A DNA stretch of 64,000 nucleotides from an uncultured Bacteroidales bacterium (lineage in GTDB: Bacteria > Bacteroidota > Bacteroidia > Bacteroidales > Paludibacteraceae). Positions 2,932-15,007 of this stretch are shown here, piece after piece (position 1 is the stretch's first letter; every line of letters starts with the position of its first letter). The translations under genes were made by a program, and so were the position numbers. The stretch spans positions 16,459 to 80,458 of the forward strand of contig CADBYS010000012.1 in NCBI GenBank assembly GCA_902798965.1. Direction: 5' to 3'. The notes beneath the pieces were generated by a model that was not told the origin of the DNA, did not search any database, and worked only from the letters and a program-made list of their open reading frames with translations.

Positions 2932-3026
2932 TCGGGACAAACTTGCGAGACTGAAACGCGCTACGCGTGTTTATCTCGCCGTTGTCCCTCCTCTTCAATC
3001 AACGAACCTTGCAGTTCGTTGATTGA
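2932..3026 (-). repeat. tRNA-leader structured element, copy at tRNA-Trp
   Basis: Read in the tRNA direction it has a first hairpin (CAATCAACGAAC with GTTCGTTGATTG, GCAA in the loop), the linker GAAGAGGAGG, and a long second hairpin made of GGGACAA/TTGTCCC, GCGAGA/TCTCGC and AAACACGCG/CGCGTTT. It ends 3 bases from the tRNA 5' end and fills most of the tuf to tRNA-Trp spacer. Its layout matches copies at 4751, 9944, 14916 and 19386, although most stem bases differ. Confidence 0.75.
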
Positions 3027-3045
3027 TTTGAGGGGTTTCGACTAA

Positions 3046-4233
3046 TTAGTCGATGAGTTTGGTGATCTGACCCGAACCTACGGTACGGCCACCCTCACGG
3101 ATTGCGAAACGCAGACCCTCAGAGCAAGCTACCGGATAGATCAACTTAACAGTGATCTCGAGGTTGTCGCCAGGCATAACCATCTCAGTTCCTTCCGGCA
3201 GAGTGATCTCACCGGTAACGTCCATTGTACGGATGTAGAACTGAGGACGATAGTGGTTGTGGAACGGAGTGTGACGACCACCTTCCTCTTTCTTGAGGAT
3301 ATAAACGGAAGCCTTGAACTCGCTGTACGGTTTAACAACGCCCGGGTGGGTGAGTACCATACCACGACGAACTTCGTCCTTGTCAATACCACGGAGCAGC
3401 AGACCTACGTTATCGCCAGCCTCACCTTGGTCGAGCAACTTACGGAACATCTCAACACCGGTAACAACCGACTTGCGTCCTTCGCTACCAAGACCGATGA
3501 GCTGAACCTCGTCACCTACCTTAACAACACCAGTCTCGATACGACCAGTTGCAACAGTACCACGACCGGTGATCGAGAATACGTCCTCAACAGGCATCAG
3601 GAACGGTTTGTCAACGGCACGTACAGGAAGTTGGATCCAGTTGTCGCAAGCGTCCATAAGCTCCATAACCTTGTCCTCCCACTCAGGTACACCGTTCAGT
3701 GCGCCAAGGGCAGAACCGCGGATAACAGGAGTATTGTCGCCGTCGAAATCGTAGAACGACAGAAGCTCACGCATCTCCATCTCTACGAGGTCAAGCATCT
3801 CAGGATCGTCCACGAGGTCGCACTTGTTCATGAATACAACCAAACGCGGAACGTTCACTTGGCGAGCCAAGAGGATGTGCTCACGGGTCTGAGGCATCGG
3901 ACCATCAGTAGCAGCAACAACGATGATAGCACCGTCCATCTGGGCAGCACCCGTTACCATGTTCTTTACATAGTCGGCGTGACCCGGGCAGTCAACGTGA
4001 GCGTAGTGACGGTTAGCCGTCTGGTACTCAACGTGAGCGGTGTTGATGGTGATACCACGCTCTTTCTCTTCCGGAGCGTTGTCGATCTGGTCGAAGCTCT
4101 TAACCTCAGACAGACCCTTCTTAGAAAGTACCAAGGTAATAGCGGCTGTCAAAGTCGTTTTTCCGTGGTCAACGTGACCGATAGTACCGATGTTAACGTG
4201 CGGTTTCGAACGGTCAAATTTTTCTTTTGCCAT
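3046..4233 (-). CDS. tuf: Elongation factor Tu
   Basis: A 395-residue full-length EF-Tu. GTPase motifs are all present: GHVDHGKT (P loop), [17 protein letters not shown] and SALGAL. Domain II ([16 protein letters not shown]) and the C-terminal [15 protein letters not shown] are intact. It delivers aminoacyl-tRNA to the ribosome. The gene sits between tRNA-Thr(GGT) and tRNA-Trp, the classic tufB position. A long A/T-rich leader with a CGCGCG hairpin near 4335-4355 separates it from tRNA-Thr. Confidence 0.98.
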
Positions 4234-4333
4234 AGTAATTACTTTTTTTATTAACGTTAATAATAAATTATTATTTTTCTCGTCAAATAAAGGCAGGTCA
4301 GTTTTGACCCCAACCTACCTTATTATTATTGTA

Positions 4334-4356
4334 TACGCGCGCTATGCTGTCGCGCG
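4334..4356 (-). other. GC-rich hairpin between tRNA-Thr(GGT) and tuf
   Basis: CGCGCG, a loop containing ACAGCATAG, and CGCGCG again form a strong short hairpin just after tRNA-Thr(GGT). It has no clean T-run after it, so it is more likely a processing or spacer hairpin in the tRNA-tuf transcript than a terminator. About 120 bases separate tRNA-Thr from the tuf start and no gene is visible in them. Confidence 0.45.
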
Positions 4357-4358
4357 AG

Positions 4359-4430
4359 AGCTGCTTCCGAGAGTTGAACTCGGGACCTCATCCTTACCAA
4401 GGATGCGCTCTACCACTGAGCTAAAGCAGC
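4359..4430 (-). tRNA. tRNA-Thr (GGT)
   Basis: The acceptor stem is GCTGCTT with AAGCAGC. The D arm is TAGCTCAGTGGTAGAGC, the anticodon loop is TTGGTAA with anticodon GGT, and the T arm is GTCCCGAGTTCAACTCTCGG. It starts only 5 bases after tRNA-Gly, so the two must be cut from one transcript. It is the last tRNA before tuf. Confidence 0.95.
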
Positions 4431-4435
4431 ATGAG

Positions 4436-4508
4436 AGCGGAAAACGGGACTCAAACCCGCGACCCCCAGCTTGGAAGGCTAGTGCTCTATCGACTGAGCT
4501 ATTTCCGC
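4436..4508 (-). tRNA. tRNA-Gly (TCC)
   Basis: The acceptor stem is GCGGAAA with TTTCCGC. The anticodon stem is CTAGC/GCTGG with loop CTTCCAA (anticodon TCC), and the T arm is GCGGGTTTGAGTCCCGT. Directly upstream lies an inverted repeat, CCGCAAATTGGC and GCCAATTTGCGG, whose second arm runs into the first bases of the tRNA itself. Confidence 0.95.
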
Positions 4509-13137: not shown

Positions 13138-13227
13138 AAAAAAAATCCATTTTCTTAAAAAAAAATTCATTTTGCATAGATTTGGCACTTTTTTTGTAGT
13201 TATTTGCACGAAAATTTTAGCAAAATT

Positions 13228-13782
13228 ATGATATATCGTATTGCATTTTCGTGCGACGAGGTCAATCGCTTTCGTCGCGTATTTGAAGCCGACAGCGAAG
13301 CCACGTTCCTGGAGTTGCATAATGCCATCCTTGAGTCGGTGGAGTACCCGAACGATCAGATGACTTCGTTCTTTACCTGCAACGACCGCTGGGAGAAAGA
13401 ACAGGAGGTTACGCTCATCGAGATGGGCAACGGCTATGACTACGACAACATGGTCATGGAGCAAACCAAGCTCAGCGACCTGCTCACCGAGCAAGGCCAG
13501 CGCTTGATTTACATCTTCGATCCTATGTTCGAGCGCTGCTTCTTCGGCAACCTCAAGGAGATCAAGCCCGGCCATATGACCGGCGTGGAGTGCGTGGAAA
13601 ACATCGGCAAAGCGCCCAAGCAGCTGGAGACCGAGGATAACATGGAAGCCATCCTGGGCAAGGACGGCAAGGGCGACCTGGATCTGGATGAGGACTTCTA
13701 CGGCTCATCGGGCTATAACGAGGGCGACATCGATTACGAGGGCTTCCAAGACCTCTCGTTCGACGACGGAACCATGTTTTAA
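13228..13782 (+). CDS. Plasmid pRiA4b ORF-3-like protein
   Basis: A 184-residue acidic protein starting MIYRIAFSCDEVNRFRRVFE. The order of short motifs (LHNAILESVEYPNDQMTSFFTCNDRWEKEQEVTL, abbreviated here as LHNAI, MTSFFTC and RWEKE, then LIYIFDPMFERCFFGNL) fits the pRiA4b ORF-3 family, whose function is unknown. The C-terminus from about residue 135 is Asp/Glu/Gly-rich and probably disordered. An ATG 8 codons earlier (13204) is possible. The gene ends 2 bases before miaA, so the two are translationally close. Confidence 0.75.
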   Translation: MIYRIAFSCDEVNRFRRVFEADSEATFLELHNAILESVEYPNDQMTSFFTCNDRWEKEQEVTLIEMGNGYDYDNMVMEQTKLSDLLTEQGQRLIYIFDPMFERCFFGNLKEIKPGHMTGVECVENIGKAPKQLETEDNMEAILGKDGKGDLDLDEDFYGSSGYNEGDIDYEGFQDLSFDDGTMF

Positions 13783-13784
13783 TC

Positions 13785-14741
13785 ATGCACAAACTGTTCG
13801 TCATCTGCGGGGCGACAGCCGCCGGCAAGACGGAGTATGCTCTCCGTCTGGCTGAGCAGTGGGATATACCTATTCTGAATGCCGACTCACGCCAGATCTA
13901 CCGCGATTTGCCTATCGGCACTGCCGCTCCTACGCCCGACGAGCTCAGCCGCGCCAAACATTACTTTGTGGGCACACACGCCTTAACGGAGACCTACAAC
14001 GCCGGGCAGTTCGAGCGCGATGCCATGGCGGTTATCCATGGGCTTATCGCCGAACGCGAGCAGCAGTCAGCAATCAGCAATCAGCAGTCAGCAGTCAGTG
14101 AACGGCCGATAGCCATCCTCTCCGGCGGAAGTATGCTATATATCGAGGCGGTTTGCAAGGGTTTGGATGATATACCCGCCGTACCTGATGCCATCCGCCG
14201 CGAAGTGCAGCAGCTCTATGCCGAAAAGGGGTTAGCCGCGCTGCAAGAGGCTGTCAGACAAGCCGACCCGAGTTACTGGCAAGAGGTGGATCAGCAGAAT
14301 CCGCAACGCTTGATGCACTGCCTGGAGGTCTGCCGCGCCACGGGAGGAACGTATTCGTCGCTACGCAAGCGAAGCAATCAGCCATCGGCAATCAGCAATC
14401 AACAATCAGCGGATCGACCATTCGTGGTCGATAAGCAAATCATTACCCGCCCACGCGAGGAACTCTACGCGCGCATTAACGCGCGCGTGTTAAATATGGT
14501 AAATCAGGGTTTGGTGGACGAAGCCGACCGCGCTTTTCGGATCACCATTGGCGACGGCTATAAGTCCCTGACCTACGAGGCAGCGTTTGCGCAACTGCCG
14601 AACAGCCTGCGCACCGTGGGTTATCAGGAGCTCCTACCCTATCTGCTCGGCACATGCAGTCTGGATGATGCCATCACGCAGATACAAACCAACACCCGCC
14701 ATTATGCCAAGCGACAGATGACCTGGTGGAGAAACAGATAG
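13785..14741 (+). CDS. miaA: tRNA dimethylallyltransferase with in-frame repeat insertions
   Basis: A 318-residue MiaA, which adds an isopentenyl group to A37 of tRNAs reading UNN codons. The P loop is GATAAGKTEYAL, followed by LNADSRQIYRDLPIGTA and the catalytic region GGSMLYIEAVCKGLDDIP. Two stretches are foreign to the family: QQSAISNQQSAVSE (14061-14099) and NQPSAISNQQSAD (14374-14411). Both are translated from imperfect 7-base repeats of the CAATCAG/CAGTCAG type. The first falls before ILSGGS and the second before the conserved RPREELYARIN segment, so both probably lie in surface loops. The rest is intact and the enzyme is likely active. Confidence 0.93.
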   Translation: MHKLFVICGATAAGKTEYALRLAEQWDIPILNADSRQIYRDLPIGTAAPTPDELSRAKHYFVGTHALTETYNAGQFERDAMAVIHGLIAEREQQSAISNQQSAVSERPIAILSGGSMLYIEAVCKGLDDIPAVPDAIRREVQQLYAEKGLAALQEAVRQADPSYWQEVDQQNPQRLMHCLEVCRATGGTYSSLRKRSNQPSAISNQQSADRPFVVDKQIITRPREELYARINARVLNMVNQGLVDEADRAFRITIGDGYKSLTYEAAFAQLPNSLRTVGYQELLPYLLGTCSLDDAITQIQTNTRHYAKRQMTWWRNR

Positions 14742-14825
14742 CGGGCGCAAACACCTTAGAAACGCACATAAAACTTGCATTTTTTGCTAAAAACGTAGAA
14801 TTTTGTGCATTTTCTGCCCCAAAGA

Positions 14826-14858
14826 TTTGCAAAATTCATAAATTTGTACTATCTTTGC
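14826..14858 (+). promoter_or_regulatory. Bacteroidota promoter for tRNA-Ser
   Basis: TTTG at 14826-14829, 20 bases, TATCTTTGC at 14850-14858. About 150 bases of leader follow before tRNA-Ser, containing the two-hairpin element. Confidence 0.85.
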
Positions 14859-14915
14859 ATCCGCTTTTGACCAAAGCACATAAAGTTCATTGTAATAAAT
14901 GTTCTTTGTGACACT

Positions 14916-15007
14916 CGAAAAAGAACTTGCAAAGTTGTTTTTCGAAGAGCTGAGGCAATCACGCACTTTATGTCGCGCAGCGACATCCGGAAGCGTGATT
15001 TGCCGAA
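14916..15007 (+). repeat. tRNA-leader structured element, copy at tRNA-Ser
   Basis: First hairpin CGAAAAAGAACTT-GCA-AAGTTGTTTTTCG, linker GAAGAGCTGAGG, outer stem GGCAATCACGC/GCGTGATTTGCC with the same bulged base as the tRNA-Tyr and tRNA-Glu copies, inner stem ATGTCGCG/CAGCGACAT. It ends 7 bases before the tRNA. This copy is on the opposite strand from the others, yet keeps the same orientation relative to its tRNA. Confidence 0.85.

Follow-up and report, generated by a model that had tools for sequence, protein, structure and literature searches.

A two-hairpin, palindromic element of ∼105–120 bp is dispersed through the genome of an uncultured Bacteroidales bacterium, where many of its copies are joined, to the base, to the edges of tRNA genes, stop codons and promoters. 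We estimate a probability of roughly three in four that this is a dispersed, non-autonomous element working like the Rickettsia palindromic elements or the REP/ERIC repeats. On the best reading, the tRNA leaders in which it was first seen are one habitat of a wandering repeat and not dedicated tRNA leader RNAs. The window, that is, the whole stretch analysed, comprises 64,000 nucleotides of a Paludibacteraceae contig (CADBYS010000012.1), and the coordinates below refer to it.

Copies in the window

A preliminary description had placed four copies of the element directly upstream of tRNA genes, and all four exist: hairpin A, a GA-rich linker and hairpin B lie just upstream of each tRNA on the tRNA's own strand. 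The tRNA genes were confirmed at these places, with Trp, Tyr and Glu on the minus strand and Ser on the plus strand. Fold z-scores are −9.2 (Trp), −5.8 (Tyr), −6.8 (Glu) and −4.5 (Ser), and 0 of 200 shuffles folded equally well. Matches to two covariance models, R1 (type 1) and R2 (type 2), end at 2929 (Trp), 4746 (Tyr), 9939 (Glu) and 15012 (Ser). The close abutment on the tRNA stands, but the gap of 3–7 bases first given shrinks by the model ends to 0 (Trp), 0 (Tyr), 1 (Glu) and 2 nt (Ser). Of the four copies, Tyr, Glu and Ser are type 1, and Trp represents a second subfamily with the linker AGAGGAG and the tail GACGA. The Trp copy reaches only 12.4 bits (E 0.28) with R1 and 79.5 bits (E 3.3e-20) with R2, a model built partly from this copy. 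Two further copies in the window had been overlooked and close the following list.

2857..2928, minus: tRNA-Trp(cca), tRNA gene call
2929..2996, minus: type-2 hairpin B and linker, 0 nt from the tRNA-Trp 5′ end (R2 79.5 bits, E 3.3e-20; copy among the R2 builders)
2995..3026, minus: hairpin A of the Trp copy, GCAA loop (fold, by-eye reading)
4662..4745, minus: tRNA-Tyr(gta), tRNA gene call
4746..4813, minus: type-1 hairpin B and linker, abutting the tRNA-Tyr 5′ end (R1 85.6 bits; copy among the R1 builders)
4813..4843, minus: hairpin A of the Tyr copy, GCAA loop (fold)
9865..9937, minus: tRNA-Glu(ttc), tRNA gene call
9939..10006, minus: type-1 hairpin B and linker, directly 5′ of tRNA-Glu (R1 96 bits, E 1.4e-26; copy among the R1 builders)
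10006..10039, minus: hairpin A of the Glu copy, GCAA loop (fold)
14915..14945, plus: hairpin A of the Ser copy (fold)
14945..15012, plus: type-1 hairpin B and linker, directly 5′ of tRNA-Ser (R1 87 bits; copy among the R1 builders)
15015..15104, plus: tRNA-Ser(cga), tRNA gene call
10080..10147, plus: type-2 copy, antisense within the tRNA-Glu leader, its 3′ end facing the Glu promoter (R2 37.9 bits, E 1.8e-8; R1 19.5 bits, E 0.002; in neither model's building set)
19381..19485, plus: complete type-1 element (GGGGTCCCC, hairpin A and hairpin B) with no tRNA adjoining (R1 35.6 bits, E 2.8e-8 over 19416–19485; not among the R1 builders)

Architecture and covariation

From its 5′ end the element runs through a GGGGTCCCC-like box, hairpin A and a linker (AGAGC(N)GAG in type 1, AGAGGAG in type 2) to hairpin B, which carries a bulged base and a conserved internal loop. 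It ends in CCGAA(N)GCG(A) or CCGACGA, the final bases being GCGA or GACGA. The consensus structure consists of helices of 3+11+7, with the bulge and the internal loop. The paired stem changes noted earlier are real. Among 14 own-genome copies, 99.7% of cells are paired and 7 of 21 pairs have changed on both sides. Strong covariation is also seen in a larger alignment of 103 copies, with 19 of 21 pairs changed on both sides and 96.9% of cells paired, although this alignment was fitted to the model and so leans towards it. For both alignments, none of 500 shuffles attains the covariation score, and slid versions fall far lower. Compensatory changes above shuffled and slid controls characterize a structured RNA under selection, and the element displays them.

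The ratio of GU pairs to AC mismatches is 16:5 in copies antisense to their mRNA, 14:7 in tRNA copies and 25:4 in the others. This would fit a structure kept on the element strand whatever the host transcript, a reading that is only suggestive because copies sharing one inherited GU pair form part of the excess. A coding element or small ORF (GGAGG followed by GTG or ATG in some copies) was rejected, as core lengths of 55–65 break the frame between copies, by reading.

The earlier remark that no described family fits was borne out. Against Rfam 15, the whole window returned only tRNA at the gathering cut-off, and between 2500 and 15500, with E up to 5, no family except tRNA reached its cut-off. 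Of the weak matches, sX4 alone (26.2 bits against a cut-off of 70) overlaps any of the four hairpin pairs, reaching the last bases of the Ser element. Twelve further element loci gave tRNA, tmRNA and cobalamin only. In open-licence papers, we found no such element described in Bacteroidetes or before tRNAs.

Copy number and host range

The element's own genome holds 32 type-1 copies at E<1e-4, 9 at tRNA 5′ ends and 23 elsewhere. A leader dedicated to tRNAs, as first proposed, is not what this distribution shows, and an RNA family restricted to tRNAs was rejected, the majority of own-genome copies lying elsewhere. The other settings include 5′UTRs or mRNA leaders, operon joints, a tmRNA 3′ end, a cobalamin riboswitch and, in two relatives, the inside of a coding gene. 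Copies unrelated to tRNAs had been named beforehand as an observation that would speak against a tRNA leader; this is largely what was found, though not wholly, as the tRNA share is far above chance and strictly oriented. The covariation that hinted at a tRNA leader RNA thus belongs to a dispersed element, which is a caution for covariation-based RNA discovery.

R1 finds matches in 27 of 61 genomes; all 27 belong to the own genus, represented by 37 genomes, and none of the 24 genomes from other families has one. Type-1 copies number 0–35 per genome (32 in the own genome, 30 in G001, 35 in G007 and 0–14 in others). R2 matches (E≤0.05) were found in 19 of 39 genomes, all among 24 of the genus and 0 among 15 others. 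In the genomes searched, both subfamilies are confined to one genus of rumen bacteria, Paludibacteraceae by record titles. A scan of named records yielded at least 110 stretches; among the 80 listed, the element-bearing records are Paludibacteraceae or Bacteroidales MAGs, many from ruminants, and one Prevotellaceae (UBA1726), while single matches in other phyla resemble chance. A viral origin was rejected: one viral contig fits the pattern, and its sequence, which lacks the conserved loops, was taken as a chance match.

Placement at functional boundaries

Placement was assessed in 124 distinct, de-duplicated copies: 30 own-genome loci (L022–L051), the top one or two loci of each of 26 relatives and 55 loci selected by hand from the scan of named records. 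Non-random, exact placement before tRNAs, as originally reported, holds in the own genome (9/32) and in this mixed sample (34/124), the latter share not being unbiased because the set excludes apparent chance matches from other phyla and many copies with 62–65-nt cores, mostly non-tRNA. A regex-derived list, chance matches included, gives 29/129 at tRNAs. The copies are not independent events, orthologous sites being counted twice (tmRNA L035/L053, dapB L065/L076), and peaks were judged against internal distance controls.

By strict distances, the 3′ end meets a boundary in 66 of the 124 copies (18/30 of the own-genome loci) and does not in the other 58. The 66 comprise 34 tRNA 5′ ends, 18 antisense promoter boxes at 2–4 nt, 9 antisense stop codons at 0 nt and 5 antisense tRNA or tmRNA 3′ ends. 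A looser count of 72/124 adds three promoter boxes 11–17 nt away and three stop codons 1–5 nt away. The tRNA copies all lie at a gap of −1 to 5 nt, with none at 6–79 nt, and all 34 within 79 nt are in the sense orientation. Antisense stop codons fall at exactly 0 nt in 9 of 31 cases within 0–79 nt, and antisense promoter boxes at exactly 4 nt in 16 of 26.

This precision at tRNAs is an argument for a functional pre-tRNA 5′ leader structure, such as an insulator or an RNase P or processing aid, selected at tRNAs and leaving non-tRNA copies as by-products. Thirteen of the 40 own-genome tRNAs carry the element (9 type 1, 4 type 2), and 17 of the 28 type-2 loci read (of 30 R2 loci; three of the 28 built R2) adjoin a same-strand tRNA at 0–2 nt. 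At Ser(gga), Glu(ttc) and Leu(cag) the subfamily differs between species, type 1 being found in one and type 2 in another, as though the same tRNA had been occupied repeatedly and independently. However, 27 of the 40 tRNAs have no complete element, the orthologous tRNA-Tyr leader lacks it in 10 relatives, most own-genome copies (23 of 32) lie away from tRNA 5′ ends, and the GU excess, suggestive only, extends to mRNA-antisense copies. We consider a dedicated leader unlikely. The strict orientation and spacing at tRNAs exceed what neutral insertion predicts, so some function or targeting mechanism may operate there. A large folded stem is set directly against 13 of the 40 tRNA genes of one genome, and RNase P must therefore act beside a stem there.

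Filled and empty sites

Orthologous sites without the element exist for each locus compared. The tmRNA 3′ end is filled in G000 and G007 and empty in each of the 14 further genus members read. At the empty site of G001 the next gene starts at a GTG 28 nt away, an ATG 5 nt away being out of frame, and comparison with this one site reveals no apparent terminal inverted repeat or target duplication, the features that would mark a MITE. The Thr-Tyr tRNA spacer is filled in G000, and the element is absent in 10 other genus members read, whose tRNA-Tyr still has a leader. The rpoZ-coaBC joint is filled in G000; the two genes overlap by one base in G007, and the 17 other rows read hold no element (18 of 21 genus loci were read, G008, G010 and G017 being left out, and the coaBC start is poorly placed in G012 and G016). 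The element also sits in frame within dapB in 2 of the 14 genus members read, with the Pfam domains DapB_N and DapB_C (six genus loci were unreadable at the site), and a cobalamin riboswitch scores 71.9 bits despite containing it.

As a dispersed repeat, the element would spread by a trans-acting activity, through a DNA- or RNA-level intermediate, with the folded strand as the probable substrate. New copies would survive mainly where no functional unit is split. Given compact spacers, the tolerated places would be joints, perhaps explaining the exact boundary placement: between stop codon and start region, transcription start and ribosome-binding region, tRNA or tmRNA 3′ end and the next leader, and boxA-like leader and tRNA. 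Copies at the leader/tRNA joint would be transcribed within the pre-tRNA and then removed by RNase P. Among 66 candidate downstream genes, the 20 that were scanned revealed neither a transposase nor a reverse transcriptase. With placement exact to the base, each insertion serves as an experiment of nature, showing where a bacterial spacer can be interrupted.

Relation to known repeat families

A close parallel in layout is with the Rickettsia palindromic elements as described in a review (PMC10969869). Both are palindromic, no longer than ∼150 bp, dispersed and patchy between species, and both occur in spacers and in frame in a metabolic gene (here dapB, in two species). The present element differs in its phylum, two-hairpin plan, conserved linker and rare in-frame copies, and in the exactness with which it adjoins tRNA 5′ ends, stop codons and promoters. 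By description it resembles the ERIC/RU enterobacterial repeats, which are ∼127 bp long, mobile and intergenic, with some within genes (PMC2759123); its host belongs to another phylum.

REPs are 20–40 bp long with a GTAG or CGTC tag, GTAG being unpaired at the foot (PMC3733652), and PMC12306157 describes REPs within 15 nt of stop codons. The element shares with REP/BIME hairpins a location near gene ends, sometimes beside stop codons, and lineage specificity. It is larger, with a unit of ∼105–120 bp ending in GCGA or GACGA, and type 1 has neither GTAG nor CGTC. Type 2 read backwards begins TCGTC, an unpaired CGTC at one end that recalls the CGTC REP superfamily. That superfamily is reported in Bacteroidetes with no dedicated transposase known there, and has stems of 8–9 bp, loops of 4–5 and a CCA tail (PMC3733652), in contrast to the larger, bulged stems without a CCA tail seen here. 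By what means such small palindromes move with no transposase known is a question that PMC3733652 leaves open for CGTC repeats; it could be addressed in this genus because filled and empty sites are easily found.

The type-2 tag raises the prospect that the element is a REP-type repeat moved by RAYT (Y1) transposases native to the genus, as do two Y1-like genes in the own genome, one of which was scanned and gave a match to REP_Tyr_transpos with E 5e-10, below the cut-off. We regard this as improbable. The own-genome Y1 gene on C1 has on its flanks arrays of another short palindrome (CTCGGCAT..ATGCCGAG), and the one on C16 has no element nearby. Across 20 Y1 loci (19 places) in the genus, no RAYT gene is flanked by the element: an unfiltered search gave a single match (L111), ∼200 bp from a gene with its own repeats, and the rest at E≥0.43. 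G001 has 30 element copies and no Y1 match, a negative qualified by its completeness of 82%. An origin as the REP of a local RAYT is thus not supported, the RAYT genes examined carrying other repeats or none.

Messenger leaders and RNA ends

The antisense peaks invite another explanation, a stability or regulatory RNA in 5′UTRs: in mRNAs the antisense copy begins close to the transcription start or immediately behind a stop codon, and a closed stem at the transcript's 5′ end would block 5′-end-dependent decay. In its favour are the exact spacings of 4 nt (promoter boxes) and 0 nt (stop codons), and the 22 of 33 counted start codons that lie 12–40 nt from the element's other side. However, the 20 genes scanned have no common function, which also led us to reject a regulon of downstream genes: two lack a Pfam match and the names found include Cons_hypoth95, DFP, DEAD with RecG wedge, MraZ, RsgA, SecDF and polyprenyl synthetase. 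The strand with the GU excess lies opposite to these mRNAs (16:5, a weak signal), and relatives lack the element at the orthologous tmRNA and rpoZ-coaBC joints. We find this explanation decidedly improbable.

There is also a slender chance that the element represents a class of mobile structured elements whose 3′ end is joined exactly to module edges (mature tRNA 5′ ends, tRNA or tmRNA 3′ ends, stop codons and transcription starts) by insertion coupled to mature RNA ends, for example when a tRNA leader released by RNase P is copied back into DNA. Such an element would naturally chart where the modules of a bacterial genome meet, and would be the bacterial counterpart of retroelements that target tRNAs. 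In eukaryotes, Ty3 and TRE5 sit a fixed, short distance 5′ of tRNA genes and encode their own proteins. The present element shares the fixed short distance before tRNA genes, but has no apparent coding capacity and many of its sites are not tRNAs. A narrower speculation, to which we give very little credence, makes the tRNA leader RNA itself the mobile unit, released by RNase P and recopied into DNA elsewhere. tRNA and non-tRNA copies do have the same 3′ end, as RNase P would make at tRNAs, but this does not predict exact abutment at stop codons and promoters.

Where there is a sharp boundary, the 3′ end and not the 5′ end faces it, an orientation rule for which the dispersal model gives no reason. 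On the 5′ side there is no peak at 0–5 nt among 72 copies. Sense promoter boxes on that side cluster at 26–30 nt (6/9), and we take these to be the leaders of tRNA copies.

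Copies in the window and across the genome

The two-hairpin element is a dispersed palindromic repeat, a new variant that lies outside any named family. The window carries tRNA genes for Trp, Thr, Gly, Tyr, Thr, Glu and Ser. Those for Trp, Tyr, Glu and Ser are each preceded immediately, on the same strand, by two hairpins with a short linker, as the preliminary description had placed them. Its structural plan holds as well: the four window copies fold with z-scores of −4.5 to −9.2 against dinucleotide shuffles (0 of 200 shuffles equal them), and the paired positions covary. The comparison with Rfam that it had proposed returned tRNA only in the window at the Rfam cut-offs, with no family for the hairpin pairs.

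A search of the source genome (G000) for GAGGCAA, 30–60 bases and TTGCCGAA gave 16 matches, compared with 0 for the reversed pattern, and 14 of the 16 were judged by reading to be clearly the same element. The covariance model built from these 14 copies (R1, type 1) matched the genome 39 times at E ≤ 1, including 32 matches below 1e-4. Of those 32 copies, only 9 lie immediately 5′ of one of the 40 tRNA genes (Glu, Tyr, Met, Lys, Pro, Gln and three Ser). A second subfamily, type 2, was found before tRNA-Asp, two tRNA-Leu and tRNA-Trp when the 5′ flanks of all 40 tRNAs were read; together, both types precede 13 of the 40. The proposal of a tRNA leader family covers only a part of what is seen: most R1 copies (23 of 32) lie elsewhere, and copies unrelated to tRNAs had been named beforehand as evidence against it. 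Some of these copies are antisense and follow straight after a TAnnTTTG promoter. Others occupy gene joints within operons, such as rpoZ-coaBC (Pfam Rpb6 and DFP), or sit in the leader of the L13 or L25 gene; one lies at the tmRNA 3′ end and one within a cobalamin riboswitch.

Anatomy and covariation

From 5′ to 3′, a full type-1 copy reads GGGG(T/C)CCCC, hairpin A, (G)GGG, AGAGC(N)GAGGCA, hairpin B and TGCC GAA(N)GCG(A). Hairpin A varies in sequence, and at tRNAs its start often departs from the GGGG(T/C)CCCC plan. Hairpin B starts from a base of 3 pairs, followed by a GA/GAA internal loop; above this, an outer stem interrupted by a single bulged base leads through a conserved internal loop to the inner stem. 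In a 103-copy alignment fitted to the model, 96.9% of cells are paired, two-sided changes occur in 19 of 21 pairs (shuffled mean 8.0), and the covariation score is 0.285, compared with 0.081 for shuffled copies and at most 0.045 with slid partners. The unfitted 14-copy alignment has 99.7% of cells paired and both-side changes in 7 of 21 pairs. Type 2 is marked by the linker AGAGGAG and the tail GACGA; R1 and the type-2 model (R2) cross-match weakly, which fits related families.

GU pairs outnumber AC mismatches at tRNAs (14:7), at antisense boundaries (16:5) and elsewhere (25:4), an excess that stems partly from copies with one inherited GU pair in common. These ratios hint that the folding strand may be the same one in every context.

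Distribution among genomes

R1 is present in 27 of 61 genomes, all of them within the genus of the source genome (27 of 37), and in 0 of 24 genomes from other families of the order. Copy numbers are 32 in the source genome, 30 and 35 in the relatives G001 and G007, and 0–14 in the others, as counted by a search whose filters lose weak matches. R2 occurs at E ≤ 0.05 in 19 of 39 genomes, again all of this genus. Among the matches listed in a scan of named genomes, records were titled Paludibacteraceae and Bacteroidales, many of ruminant origin, together with one Prevotellaceae-titled record with a good copy at tRNA-Thr (L150); single matches in other phyla, among those listed, were sequences without the conserved loops.

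Placement at boundaries

The position of the base after the 3′ GCG relative to boundaries was measured for 124 distinct chosen copies. Same-strand tRNA 5′ ends lie at −1 to 5 nt in 34 copies and at 6–79 nt in none. Antisense promoter boxes (CAAANNTA) lie at exactly 4 nt in 16 copies and at other distances in 10, and antisense stop codons (of frames open for 100 codons or more) lie at exactly 0 nt in 9, with another 22 scattered over 1–79 nt. Antisense tRNA or tmRNA 3′ ends account for three copies at −1 nt and single ones at 2, 5 and 79 nt. Strict distances leave 58 of the 124 copies with no abutting boundary and 66 with one; for the own-genome loci the latter figure is 18 of 30. For type 2, a same-strand tRNA lies at 0–2 nt in 17 of 28 loci read; two further loci end in an apparent tRNA-Ser (by reading) broken off at the contig end, and the element of L374 and L382 runs straight into an antisense promoter box.

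On the 5′ side, no boundary peak appeared at 0–5 nt among 72 copies with a recognisable start; start codons there lie at 12–40 nt in 22 of 33 cases, and sense promoter boxes at 26–30 nt in 6 of 9. It is the 3′ end that faces a sharp boundary, in antisense direction in mRNAs but in sense direction before tRNAs. If insertion at joints were neutral, both orientations would be expected. Either insertion would be directional or selection would remove one orientation.

Filled and empty sites

Of the genus members read, G000 and G007 carry the element at the tmRNA 3′ end and the 14 others do not; two genomes of other families likewise have an empty site there. In the empty site of G001, a translation GTPase gene (GTP_EFTU; LepA-like by reading) has its GTG start 28 nt after the tmRNA; in G000 the element sits between the tmRNA and the leader of this gene, and no loss of empty-site sequence is apparent on either side. 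A tandem pair was also observed at this locus:

L348 1350–1420, minus strand (G000:C7, behind tmRNA): hairpin A unit with adjoining TTACAATGAATA

The tRNA-Thr to tRNA-Tyr spacer of G000, which contains the element, measures 150 nt; in ten genus members this spacer is element-free and 17–82 nt long. At rpoZ-coaBC, stop and start codons overlap by one base in G007, G003 and G005 and are one base apart in G022, G015 and G019, while G000 reads TGA, the element at once, 12 nt and ATG; the element is absent from all 17 other genus rows read. These cases fit a rule by which very short, nearly all-functional spacers tolerate insertion at the joint only.

Within dapB, the element lies in frame and antisense in G026 and G004 and is absent in the twelve other genus members read. 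In four of the latter (L269, L271, L273 and L274) the same DapB loop holds another in-frame insert (..ELKIKNYELKIEDN-like), which marks the loop of this biosynthetic enzyme as a hypervariable site of insertion.

Mover candidates and relation to known repeats

The Y1 transposase domain (PF01797) occurs twice in the source genome. The gene on contig C1, RAYT-like and encoding 344 aa, is flanked on both sides by direct arrays of its own short palindrome, CTCGGCAT..ATGCCGAG plus CACAGAACACC, which differs from the element:

L110 1112–1215 and 2303–2400 (G000:C1:79400-82700): palindrome arrays of the RAYT-like gene

The C-terminal half of its protein presumably resembles a DprA/Rossmann-type domain. 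No element copy was seen near the second gene, on C16. Across Y1 loci of the genus, the element occurs in 1 of 20 (19 places), about 200 bp from a G022 gene that has its own repeats. No transposase or reverse transcriptase was found among 20 neighbour proteins scanned.

In its behaviour, the element comes closest to Rickettsia palindromic elements (PMC10969869) and to REP/ERIC-type repeats (PMC3733652, PMC12306157). It departs from the REP definition in size, tag and RAYT flanks, though type 2 has one end similar to the CGTC tag (PMC3733652); it is therefore classed here as a variant among the dispersed palindromic repeats. A literature search of open-licence papers found no description of such an element.

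Other motifs near tRNAs

Two further sequences lie in the window:

4549–4579: another dispersed motif, AATCGTTCGAG, a small hairpin and GAGATAAGAA (by reading)
4509–4661 (Tyr-Gly tRNA spacer; also G004, G016): further hairpin-rich sequence, ..GCGGAAG..CTTGTGCAAG.., partly common to relatives

The AATCGTTCGAG/GAGATAAGAA motif occurs near tRNAs and elsewhere, including downstream of the element in L015, L012 and L020 and in the rpoZ-coaBC spacer of G018. Behind tRNA-Ser(gga) in L011 there is a head-to-tail sequence (GCGGCGAGCCGTGG...) with two starts 114 bp apart. In L020, the tRNA-Gln 3′ end TCGAGTCCTGGTTGAGCAACA (624) is repeated 124 bp downstream (748), a pattern that an integrated element or a duplication would leave. 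Among the 5′ flanks of the 40 own-genome tRNAs (L298–L337), many of those lacking the element show a simpler arrangement: CCGCTTT immediately behind the promoter can pair with AAAGCG immediately ahead of the tRNA. The boxA-like TTCTTTGAAA is frequent in tRNA leaders. For Phe, Leu(caa) and Pro(tgg), the leader closes with TGCCGAA(N)GCGA and resembles an eroded element copy.
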